Assembly: GCF_006704265.1 (NCBI RefSeq)
Contig: NZ_VIKA01000012.1
Location: 1 to 45,106, forward strand
Direction of reading: 5' to 3'
Source: Elioraea sp. Yellowstone
GTDB taxonomy: Bacteria; Pseudomonadota; Alphaproteobacteria; Acetobacterales; Acetobacteraceae
DNA length: 45,106 bases
Part shown: one piece after another, positions 9,524 to 14,174 of the stretch
Layout: each line of letters begins with the position of its first letter
Position numbering within the stretch: the stretch's first letter is position 1
The notes under the pieces: model-generated
Databases searched by the model: none
Seen by the model: the letters and a program-made list of their open reading frames with translations, nothing else
Told to the model about the DNA's origin: nothing
Program-made: the position numbers and the translations under genes

Positions 9524-10324
9524 TCAGTCCTCGTCGGGCCCCGCCATGACGGCGTGCGGCGCCTCGCCCTTGCGGCGCTTGCGGGTGCGCATGGCATAGG
9601 CGCCGCGCTGGCGGTTCGGATCGACGTTGGGACGGACGACGGTGTCCTCGTAGTCCGCCCAGTCGTCCTCCGTCAGGTCGGCAAGCGCTGGGACGATCTT
9701 CACCGACTGCATGGTCTCGTCGCCGTAGAGGCTGCGCGGCAGCGGCACGACCTGGAAGATCGGGTAGTCGGGCTCGAGCCGGACCTGCACGTCGGTCTTG
9801 GTGAGGCGGATGTTGCTGAACAGCGGGCCGAACCAGCGATCGGTCTCGATGATGCCCTCGTAGAGCTCGTAGTGGCCGCGTGGCAGGTTGACGGGGCCGC
9901 GCACCAGCAGGCCCCAGCCGGGGGCCGTGCGCGCGATCAGGCCGGACCAGATCTGCACCACGCCAGGCTCGCGCAGGGCCGAGAGGAAGGGCGGCGAGAA
10001 CCCCTTGACGTGGTCCGGCGCGGCCGCGTCGAAGGCCTGGGCGAAGTAGGGGAACTGGGCACTGCCGTTGAGCGGGATCCAGCCGTCATGTTCGGCGCCG
10101 TCGTAGGTCCAGAAGACCTGGCTGCCGTCCCACATCAGGGTCAGGCCGATCGGCGGGAAGACGTACCAGCCGAAGGCGGTGGCGGTGGTGACGGCCTCGC
10201 AGTACCGGAAGGCGCGGGTGGGCAGGGTGCCGATGGCGGAGCGGTCCGCACGCATCGGTGGGCGGGCCTGCTCGATCAGGCGGTGGAAGGTCAGGATGGG
10301 GCTGGCGGGCGGCGCATCCGGCAT
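9524..10324 (-). CDS. Conserved protein of unknown function (DUF6065-like)
   Basis: The product has 266 residues. The start at 10324 is chosen because GAGGGA lies just upstream; an in-frame extension to 10411 runs back into a strong hairpin. From memory it resembles the DUF6065 family (not verified by search): GTLPTRAFRYCEAVTTATAF near the start, FGWYVFPPIGLTLMWDG, then PPFLSALREPGVVQIWSGL, APGWGLLVRGPVNLPRGHYE and YEGIIETDRWFGPLFSNIRL. The many aromatic and beta-prone segments suggest a compact beta-rich soluble fold, perhaps cupin-like; a His-Tyr-Glu and a later Asp are notable but no metal site is proven. There is no signal peptide or membrane segment. It follows the six-repeat peptide gene on the same strand, 113 bp downstream and past a hairpin, so the two probably act together. 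The basic tail (RTRKRRKG) is also visible. Confidence 0.75.
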   Translation of the reverse strand: MPDAPPASPILTFHRLIEQARPPMRADRSAIGTLPTRAFRYCEAVTTATAFGWYVFPPIGLTLMWDGSQVFWTYDGAEHDGWIPLNGSAQFPYFAQAFDAAAPDHVKGFSPPFLSALREPGVVQIWSGLIARTAPGWGLLVRGPVNLPRGHYELYEGIIETDRWFGPLFSNIRLTKTDVQVRLEPDYPIFQVVPLPRSLYGDETMQSVKIVPALADLTEDDWADYEDTVVRPNVDPNRQRGAYAMRTRKRRKGEAPHAVMAGPDED

Positions 10325-10397
10325 CACGATCCCTCGTCGCGGCGTCTCTGGACGCGCTTCCAGGAAAACATACGGGAAGACCTCGGGGAGAATGAAA

Positions 10398-10426
10398 GGT
10401 CGCGCCGGCATGGGACCGGCGCGACC
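10398..10426 (-). terminator. Hairpin between repeat peptide gene and partner (attenuating terminator?)
   Basis: An 11-bp perfect stem (10398-10408 pairing with 10416-10426) with a 7-base loop lies 11 bases after the repeat gene stop. On the minus strand it is followed by TTTCATTCTCC, a moderately T-rich tail. It could terminate part of the transcription so that the short peptide message is more abundant than the downstream gene, or stabilise the 3' end of a processed message. Confidence 0.55.
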
Positions 10427-10437
10427 TCCGAAGGGGA

Positions 10438-10785
10438 TCAGAGCGCGGGAGCCACGCCGCCGAGGCGCACCTTGCCCGCGTCCGCGACCGGCTTCAGGGC
10501 CGGGGCGACGCCGCCGAGGCGCACCTTGCCGGCATCCGCGATCGGCTTCAGGGCGGGAGCCACGCCGCCGAGGCGCACCTTGCCGGCATCCGCGACCGGC
10601 TTCAGGGCCGGGGCGACGCCGCCGAGGCGGACCTTGCCGGCATCCGCGACCGGCTTCAGGGCGGGAGCCACGCCGCCGAGGCGGACCTTGCCGGCGTCCG
10701 CGATCGGCTTCAGGGCCGGGGCGACGCCGCCGAGGCGCACCTTGCCGGCATCCAGCGTGGGAGAGGCGTTCAGGGTGTGGGCCAT
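10438..10785 (-). CDS. Six-repeat small protein (candidate multi-core peptide precursor)
   Basis: This is a 115-residue protein. After an 11-residue start (MAHTLNASPTL) it consists of five full 18-residue units reading DAGKVRLGGVAPALKP then V or I, then Ala, and a sixth unit of 14 residues that stops after PAL. The only amino-acid difference among units is Val/Ile; DNA differences are otherwise synonymous, so the peptide itself appears to be under selection. A very strong ribosome site (AAGGAG, six bases before ATG) implies high expression. There is no signal peptide, cysteine or aromatic residue, and each unit has a Lys, an Arg and an Asp. The pattern would suit a multi-core peptide precursor cut into identical products, or a flexible repetitive binding protein; neither is shown. 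The DUF6065-like gene follows on the same strand and no protease or exporter is adjacent. Confidence 0.8.
   Translation of the reverse strand: MAHTLNASPTLDAGKVRLGGVAPALKPIADAGKVRLGGVAPALKPVADAGKVRLGGVAPALKPVADAGKVRLGGVAPALKPIADAGKVRLGGVAPALKPVADAGKVRLGGVAPAL
10441..10752 (-). repeat. 54-bp tandem repeat, six units, inside CDS
   Basis: Units recur every 54 bp (the same landmark ACGCCGCCGAGGC occurs at 10454, 10508, 10562, 10616, 10670 and 10724). Alternate units share silent variants (GGGAGCCAC against GGGGCGACG), giving a 108-bp higher-order period, so a two-unit block appears to have been duplicated. Because the unit is a multiple of three, copy-number change keeps the frame. Confidence 0.95.
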
Positions 10786-11142
10786 CGTGATCTCCTTCGA
10801 TCGTCTCTCAGACTGCGGGTTCTTGCTTTGTTCCGGCCATGAACGGAAGCCCCACGACTAGGACAAGAGGCTCGGCCAGATCGAGCAAGGCGGCGAGGCA
10901 GTCCTACCCGCCGGATGAGTGAGAACGTAACAGGAACTTTTGCCGGTCGCAAGAGATATGTCCTACAACCGCGGGGAGGTGTCATGGCTCCGTCGTTGCC
11001 GTCGGGCGGCGTGCGCCAACAAATCACGCATGCTGACGACGATCTCACGCGCGATCCCCGCGTCTGTTCCGGCACTCTTCTCTATATCGGTTCGTCCCGA
11101 CGGATGCCACGCCAGCGGCACGCGGCGCGGATGAGGGGATTC
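10786..11142. other. Intergenic region between divergent small genes
   Basis: This 357-bp stretch separates the repeat peptide gene from the divergent 100-residue gene and is visibly less GC-rich than its surroundings. It should hold the promoters of both genes, but I find no convincing -35/-10 pair. A plus-strand frame is open across part of it (from 10915, with an ATG and good ribosome site at 10984), so the right-hand gene might start earlier than annotated. No RNA gene was recognised. Confidence 0.5.
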
Positions 11143-12973: not shown

Positions 12974-13966
12974 TCAGGCCGGCACCAGCCGTACCAGGAA
13001 GGTCGCGGCGGAACCGGTGTCGGCGATGCACTCGACGGCGATCTCGTCCCACAGTGCGGCGGTGCTCACACTGGCGTCCACCGGCGCGAAGGTCACCCCG
13101 CCGCCCTTGGCCACGGTGGCGTTGCCGGCCGCGGCGCGGCGCACCACGCAGGCGAAGCCCTTGCCGAGCCCGGCCGGCAGGGTGAGGGTACGGTCCGACC
13201 CGTCGCACTCGATCACGCGCCCGTTGTCGGCCGCCGTCGCCGCCCGGTTCGCCGTCAGCGCGGCATAGGAGGCGGGGCCGCCCACCGCGGCGAGGGTCGC
13301 GGTGCGGGTTGCACCCGTGCCGCCATAGGCGATCGCGAGGTTCGTGCCGGCGACCACCATCGCCTCGGTCTGGGCGCGCGCCGCGGCCGGGAAGTCGGTG
13401 ACCTGGGCGGCCGCGTGCGTGTGCGTTGCCGGTGCCTTGCCGTCGAGCGCGGTCTGCAGGTTGGCGATGTCGGCGATGACATGGCCGTGCGACACCGCCG
13501 CCGCGCCGAGCGTGCTGCGCGCGGCGGCGGCGTCCGCGTCGTCCAGCAGCGACCGGGCGAAGCCGGTGAGCGGCGCGAGCGCGGCGGCGCTCGCGCCGGT
13601 GTAGTAGGCGATGCGGTCGGCGGCCGGGGTGAGCGCGTCGATCGCGTCGATCGCCGCCGGGATTCCGGTGAGCGCGGACCAGTCGGTCGAGCCGCCGCTG
13701 CCGACAACGTCGGTCGCCGGGGCCCAGGCGGTGCCGTTCCACTTCAGCACTTGGCCCGTGGAGGCCCCCCCCTGGGCGAGCCTGGCCGGTGCGATCGTGC
13801 CGATCAGATCCGCCTCGGTATGGGTGTGCGCCGCCGGTGCGAGGGATGCCCGGACCTGACCGACGGTGATCTTGCGGGTGGTGCCGTTCTGATTGGCGAC
13901 CATCTCGTCGGTGTCCTGGGCGGACGTCGCGGGCGGGTATTGCGAGATCTTCAGAGGGCCAGACAT
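12974..13966 (-). CDS. Phage tail-fibre-like protein
   Basis: The product has 330 residues. The start at 13966 is preceded by AAGGAG with good spacing. It shows features of phage tail fibres: repeated His-x-His motifs (APAAHTHTEADL, VSHGHVIADI and APATHTHAAAQVTDF), the recurrent LQTALDGKAPATHTH and Gly/Ala/Thr-rich beta stretches (YGGTGATRTATLAAVGGPAS). In T4 short-tail-fibre-like proteins such histidines bind metal ions in a trimeric shaft. The C-terminal 90 residues look like a receptor-binding or capping domain (LTLPAGLGKGFACVVRRAA). No other phage structural genes are adjacent except two small genes beyond the tRNA, so this is a remnant or a domesticated gene. Confidence 0.7.
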   Translation of the reverse strand: MSGPLKISQYPPATSAQDTDEMVANQNGTTRKITVGQVRASLAPAAHTHTEADLIGTIAPARLAQGGASTGQVLKWNGTAWAPATDVVGSGGSTDWSALTGIPAAIDAIDALTPAADRIAYYTGASAAALAPLTGFARSLLDDADAAAARSTLGAAAVSHGHVIADIANLQTALDGKAPATHTHAAAQVTDFPAAARAQTEAMVVAGTNLAIAYGGTGATRTATLAAVGGPASYAALTANRAATAADNGRVIECDGSDRTLTLPAGLGKGFACVVRRAAAGNATVAKGGGVTFAPVDASVSTAALWDEIAVECIADTGSAATFLVRLVPA

Positions 13967-14174
13967 CGGCGTCTCCTTGACGAATGACAGGGCCGTCTCG
14001 ACGGAGCGGCCCGGTTGCGGTGTCACCGCCCGACCGTCGGCCGGCGGGTAGCGGCACGGGGCGTTCGGGCGGCGTGCCGGCCCGCCTCGCCGATGCCGCG
14101 CACGAGGCATCTCGACGGCAGGCCGGGGTTTGGAGTAGTGGACCGGCGCGAGCGGAGTGGCCTGTCAGGCCAGC

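Follow-up and report, generated by a model that had tools for sequence, protein, structure and literature searches.

The window analysed here is a 45,106-nucleotide stretch of Elioraea sp. Yellowstone DNA. It carries a small gene built of six peptide units followed on the same strand by a gene of the DUF6065 family, and this repeat-partner module is conserved across Acetobacteraceae and in other Alphaproteobacteria. We consider it probable (roughly 0.6) that the units act as a series of docking or substrate sites for the cognate DUF6065 protein, for which a dUTPase fold is predicted. The evidence for this reading comprises coding constraint on the repeat gene, its linkage to the partner, the co-evolution of unit type and partner, the linkage of both to a regulator and the predicted fold of the partner. 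From these we infer direct binding, the binding site, the stoichiometry, any chemical change and the role of the regulator. All results were computed from sequence, and statements about fold refer to a predicted model.

The repeat gene is under coding constraint

The repeat protein consists of a short N-terminus followed by five copies of DAGKVRLGGVAPAL-KP[VI]A and a final DAGKVRLGGVAPAL standing alone (Table 1). The initial annotation had described six 18-residue units in a 115-residue protein. The length and the number of units are correct, but the last unit has only 14 aa and stops at ...GGVAPAL. TRF called the array at positions 10438-10753 (period 54, score 509). Consistent with the earlier claim that the units differ almost only synonymously, the six 14-aa cores share one amino-acid sequence, and their codons show 8 synonymous and 0 replacing differences, a bias with P = 8e-5 when judged against mutational opportunity. 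When the five full 18-aa units were compared, 5 synonymous differences and 1 replacing (V/I) difference were found. The very strong ribosome site noted previously was also found, as a Shine-Dalgarno sequence close to the ATG. The repeat occurs only once in the window's genome, with no similar stretch elsewhere there, and a chance origin is excluded because about 90 homologous loci exist. The repeat gene is a genuine coding gene. Matches of its product to Pfam VMAP-M7 and to NCBIfam models all scored below cut-off, and these identities were rejected on that ground.

A hairpin had been claimed 3′ of the repeat-gene stop, and folding of the intergenic region bore this out, with a stem of 14-15 bp, an energy of −29.3 kcal/mol and z = −5.05. 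The terminator scan called no intrinsic terminator in the hairpin region, because the U-run is missing.

Table 1. Positions of the module's features in the window
Feature	Position	Strand	Remark
Partner gene, window-like subfamily of DUF6065 (PF19541)	9524..10324	-	266 aa; predicted dUTPase fold
Hairpin GGTCGCGCCGG...CCGGCGCGACC	10395..10429	-	between repeat gene and partner; without U-run
Repeat gene	10438..10785	-	115 aa; six DAGKVRLGGVAPAL units behind 11-aa N-terminus
Unit array	10441..10752	-	five 18-aa units and a final 14-aa unit; TRF period 54
N-terminus MAHTLNASPTL	10753..10785	-	shorter than a typical RiPP leader
Shine-Dalgarno AAGGAG	10792..10797	-	6 nt 5′ of ATG

The repeat gene and its DUF6065 partner form a conserved module

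The partner matched Pfam DUF6065 (PF19541) with an E value of 2e-15 and 57 bits, against a curated cut-off of 26.6 bits, and matches above this cut-off were obtained for 35/35 members of set A2. The partner is a member of DUF6065, and the conserved same-strand gene of the initial annotation is a DUF6065 gene with many relatives. DUF6065 was its only Pfam match and NCBIfam gave none; none of the families known for peptide modification was matched, and the PADLOC anti-phage defence models returned 0 families for either the repeat protein or the partner. The partner most likely starts at position 10324 (MPDAPP...), the point at which its homologues begin; this start was preferred over the ORF start at 10411 because the latter falls within the hairpin. 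A second, divergent DUF6065 gene of the same genome (L124; G000:C348:12447-12878) has neither nearby units nor the RADRSA...RYC motif.

When 150 Acetobacteraceae genomes were searched for DUF6065, two main groups were obtained, one classic (about 300 bits) and one window-like (about 30-65 bits). Both belong to the same family by the curated cut-off and have in common the positions C42, W65-x-G67, P144-x-N146, E160-T161-D162-x-W164 and N171. Classic members, most of which scored roughly 300 bits or higher in the genomes searched, differ in having a tail of their own and no unit genes. Their conserved C-terminal tail, PDH.TKLRLKPF, is placed at the site of dUTPase motif V. One classic member (L075) carries a C-terminal Cupin_8/JmjC fusion that was confirmed by Pfam. 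Domains of this kind are present in protein hydroxylases, so that the fusion is compatible with a DUF6065 family that handles peptides. Four other long DUF6065 ORFs (L392, L398, L402 and L409) are candidates for the same fusion, Pfam confirmation having been obtained for L075 alone.

Using a nine-column score profile of the unit on 102 non-redundant window-like loci, we found a DxGxVRLGG-like unit within 1.2 kb upstream of 88/102 DUF6065 genes. At the same threshold no unit was found on the antisense strand (0/102), downstream (0/99) or at classic DUF6065 loci (0/10). These controls matter because the profile was trained on the loci that it then scored, with the exception of five outside the family; the controls and the out-of-family loci together are the safeguard. 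Inspection by eye added six loci with divergent units (L182, L184, L211, L283, L284 and L285), which include relatives outside the Acetobacteraceae found through DUF6065 alone, and raised the count to 94/102. Four loci (L143, L180, L190 and L196) have no recognisable unit. The initial annotation had named a consistent lack of nearby repeat genes at homologues of the partner as evidence that would refute it. The counts come out in its favour, and they extend the proposed peptide system with a conserved partner to about 90 loci.

As a blind check, the partner profile was run against 385 genomes of the class. Four strong matches lay outside the Acetobacteraceae, and all four had multi-unit ORFs just upstream, with units such as KVRLGNMSPAF and KVKLGMMAPAF, although these loci had been picked by the partner alone. 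On a Rhizobium plasmid, three D[AD]G[NKR]VHIANKSP[AM]F units lie directly 5′ of the DUF6065 gene; behind this pair (L211:4843-5861) are two overlapping ORFs that resemble a split MFS transporter. The module is conserved: it occurs across Acetobacteraceae, in other Alphaproteobacteria and on the Rhizobium plasmid, many of the carriers being soil or water bacteria. The nearest named relatives of the window's organism are Elioraea species. Sixteen contigs that IMG/VR lists as viral (L365-L380) also carry a window-like DUF6065 gene; in ten or so of them a unit peptide was recognised upstream, and many start near the unit array.

Unit type co-evolves with the partner

In nearly all window-like loci the unit-bearing ORF lies directly upstream of the partner on the same strand and contains between 1 and about 19 units. 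These copy numbers are lower bounds because many assemblies break inside arrays; the contigs of L017, L020, L022, L132, L174 and others end or reach N there, so that units are undercounted in short-read assemblies. A regular expression recognised a single unit in 31/102 genes, a figure that includes some false calls (for example L135, L143, L172 and L180), and score-based counts are preferred. Several genes, such as L109, encode one unit within a peptide of about 30 aa. The short N-terminus before the first unit also recurs in other intact homologues (for example L010 and L012).

The units begin with D-x-G-[KR]-[VI]-R-L-G-[GA] and end in a variable half; most homologues share D1, G3, K/R4, V/I5, R6, L7 and G8. 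Variable halves of the P type include GVAPAL, GMSPSL and GYAPTL, and those of the R type AGMRRG, GGYRLP and AGCRLLP; others exist. The earlier claim that residue content excludes lanthipeptide and thiazole chemistries holds for the window unit. Ser, Thr, Cys and aromatic residues are present in the variable half of some homologues and missing from that of others, which makes a universal lanthionine or azole chemistry unlikely.

In a tree built from 113 partner proteins, only 3 changes of unit type (P or R) were needed for 89 labelled loci. Such a signal can stem from the shared inheritance of neighbouring genes. Several genomes, however, carry both unit types, each beside the matching DUF6065 clade (CAIZFE01, L151 P and L178 R; JAJZFA01, L153 P and L202 R; JAFKFI01, L146 P and L179 R; JAFAHH01, L163 P and L140 R), and these paralogous modules argue against shared inheritance as the sole cause. 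The pairing is therefore specific within a genome and not only between species.

The partner is predicted to have a dUTPase fold

The AlphaFold model of the partner had a pLDDT of 80.8 and a pTM of 0.75. The PDB matches listed by Foldseek for this model were all dUTPases (best E value, 3.1e-5), and VIA-align superimposed it on dUTPases with Z scores of 10.7-12.0 (for example, Z 12.0, rmsd 5.4 over 122 residues and Z 11.7, rmsd 3.2 over 119 residues). A dUTPase fold is thus predicted for the partner. At the sequence level, a deep DUF6065 profile matched dUTPases with P = 0.005, compared with 0.35-0.92 for six unrelated profiles, a link that is weak when taken alone; a sequence search of the PDB gave one chance match (E 0.37).

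In the alignment, VRGPVN of the partner, a stretch of the form V-R-[GP]-P-[VA]-N, falls on dUTPase motif II (VRPRSG), and G-I-I-E-T-D-R-W-F-G falls on motif III (GTIDADYRG), with Asp replaced by Glu, Tyr by Trp and one residue inserted. The serine of motif II (P-R-S-[SG]) is absent, with N146 present in 99-100% of members instead. The glycine-rich motif V (RGxGGFGSTG) is also absent, the C-terminus of the partner being RGxYAxxxRKRR. Since the alignment with dUTPases indicates that the motif II serine and motif V are gone, the partner fails membership in the dUTPase enzyme family on these two motifs. In a 173-protein DUF6065 alignment, N146, E160 and W164 are almost invariant, and D162 is invariant among window-like members and present in 85% of classic ones. 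The partner may be a dUTPase-like pocket redirected to another use.

Possible roles of the units

If the units are docking or substrate sites, the partner would bind the units singly, at the place where dUTPases have their active-site cleft. The number of units would set the number of sites per precursor, according to a RiPP-like logic of many equivalent cores and one partner. The conserved first half of the unit would be the part that is recognised, and the variable second half would differ between module types. The module may instead be a true RiPP system, a tentative reading in which DUF6065, with or without housekeeping enzymes, modifies a multi-core precursor whose units are cut out and act extracellularly. 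A small multi-unit ORF does stand beside one conserved partner with unit boundaries kept, a structured hairpin and a linked transcription regulator accompany it, and precursors with several cores are known, such as the three-core microviridin precursor AMdnA (PMC5934393). In one group of mostly P-type loci, TldD, a member of the protease family that matures microcin B17 (PMC5810440), is encoded 5′ of the module and on its strand. This adjacency is, however, limited to one locus set and may be old gene order, because the TldD loci mostly share gshA/rsmE too. Moreover, only 11 aa precede the first unit of the window repeat protein, the units within a gene are near-identical, and they have no universal reactive Cys, Ser, Thr or aromatic side chain. 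Neither a leader peptide nor a known modifying enzyme was found in the cluster, and on both features RiPP membership fails; the recurring neighbour families included no such enzyme and no dedicated transporter or protease either. A RiPP is possible but unproven because a leader, a dedicated transporter and a dedicated protease are not consistently present.

The lack of recurring processing genes would suit a multivalent regulator or scaffold, in which uncut and unmodified units block the dUTPase-like clefts and thereby inactivate, store or cluster DUF6065. We regard this as possible though doubtful. The range from 1 to about 19 units is what valency would predict, the predicted fold of the partner would provide the clefts, and trimeric dUTPases are bound and inhibited by a protein ligand, the repressor Stl (PMC6770826, PMC5847570). 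Yet multivalency is irrelevant to the 31 genes with one recognised unit, even allowing for the false calls among them, and no ligand of DUF6065, or activity to be inhibited, is known. It is improbable that the units are the C-terminal arm of DUF6065 itself, split off from the protein, multiplied and now provided in trans. A dUTPase-fold protein would then have lost its active-site arm, and 1 to about 19 copies acting in trans would complete, occupy or time the cleft, a proposal that we likewise hold to be improbable. The window-like subfamily does lack the classic tail and has separate units (DAGKVRLGGMAPAL) instead. Profile alignment of D..TKLRL, from a tail window of 47 distinct classic sequences, with DAGKVRL gave permutation P values of 0.009 for all units, 0.023 for the P type and 0.048 for the R type, but with the most basal units P was 0.18. 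The matching stretch is short, common residues are frequent in it, and the idea arose after the data had been seen; since P ranges from 0.009 to 0.18 with the unit set, the likeness is a lead only. Finally, we hold it very unlikely that the repeat protein is a structural beta-solenoid with DUF6065 as its chaperone or anchor. When the repeat protein was modelled by itself, the best AlphaFold model did have one strand per repeat and a pLDDT of 75. False solenoids are known to arise from perfect repeats, and the model was not trusted because the other four scored 38.8-44.0; one-unit peptides of about 30 aa such as L109 would also be too short.

Besides the classic DUF6065 members, three known systems come closest to the module. 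Like multi-core RiPPs (microviridin AMdnA, cyanobactins), it has several near-equivalent units per precursor, one partner gene and a variable copy number; unlike them, it lacks a recognisable leader, a known modifying enzyme and a consistent protease or transporter, and its partner has a predicted dUTPase fold. With the trimeric dUTPase/dCTP deaminase fold family the partner would share the predicted fold (Z 12), the order of core strands and the motif-III-like G-I-I-E-T-D-x-W-x-G, but it is about twice the size, lacks the motif II serine and motif V, and has an adjacent cognate peptide gene. In the dUTPase-Stl pairs of phage-inducible islands, a dUTPase-fold protein has a protein ligand, as may be the case here by analogy; Stl, however, is a DNA-binding repressor, whereas the candidate ligand of the module is a repeated short motif. 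The literature searched contained no paper on DUF6065, on the unit strings tried or on a dUTPase-fold peptide partner. In the accessible portion of an antiSMASH survey of Acetobacteraceae, where DUF692, azole, lasso, cyanobactin-like and linocin clusters are reported, the module is not among the RiPP clusters (PMC8776678). The view that this is an undescribed peptide system agrees with the absence of any description in the databases and literature searched. Should the partner bind or alter the units, no earlier case of a dUTPase-fold protein devoted to a ribosomal peptide would be known to us, and DUF6065, for which no function is known, would gain its first testable ligand.

A BTAD/TPR regulator is linked to the module

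Clustering of neighbouring genes yielded one recurring large family, a BTAD/TPR transcription regulator of about 700 aa (Pfam BTAD, E 5e-15). It adjoins the module, upstream or downstream, at 27/39 named loci whose flanks are long enough on either side. Upstream positions prevail in R-type loci and downstream ones in P-type loci, the regulator being on the opposite strand in both cases. In Roseomonas rosea (L182) it is downstream on the same strand, and in a genome of another family (G338) it directly precedes the repeat gene and partner, all on one strand. The regulator beside the pair probably controls it. The C-terminal ...RLGG of the regulator was considered as a unit and rejected, since the Elioraea homologue ends in AAGLPEG and the motif is not conserved.

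In the window and in G003, the repeat gene and DUF6065 lie beside ssb and the regulator is elsewhere, adjoining gyrA in the window's genome. In four other Elioraea genomes (G001 and G004-G006), the repeat gene is beside the regulator and gyrA, and DUF6065 is on another contig (beside cysK in G001). The partners without an adjacent repeat gene in these four genomes are explained by this two-way split of the trio. Repeat gene, DUF6065 and regulator are all kept in 6/7 Elioraea genomes and all absent from the seventh, which is incomplete.

Several further neighbours were observed. The C-terminal part of the regulator adjoins gyrA on contig C49 of G000, and its N-terminal part (L280, G000:C308) lies beside genes resembling a dipeptide/oligopeptide ABC importer. 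A TldD/PmbA protease gene lies upstream in mostly P-type loci (L144, L154, L198 and others), with gshA-rsmE downstream where the contig reaches. In the window, the 378-aa product of a gene near cysK (positions 12974-14110, minus strand) contains a phage-tail-repeat domain (PF12789), and a similar gene is found near cysK in G001 (L082).
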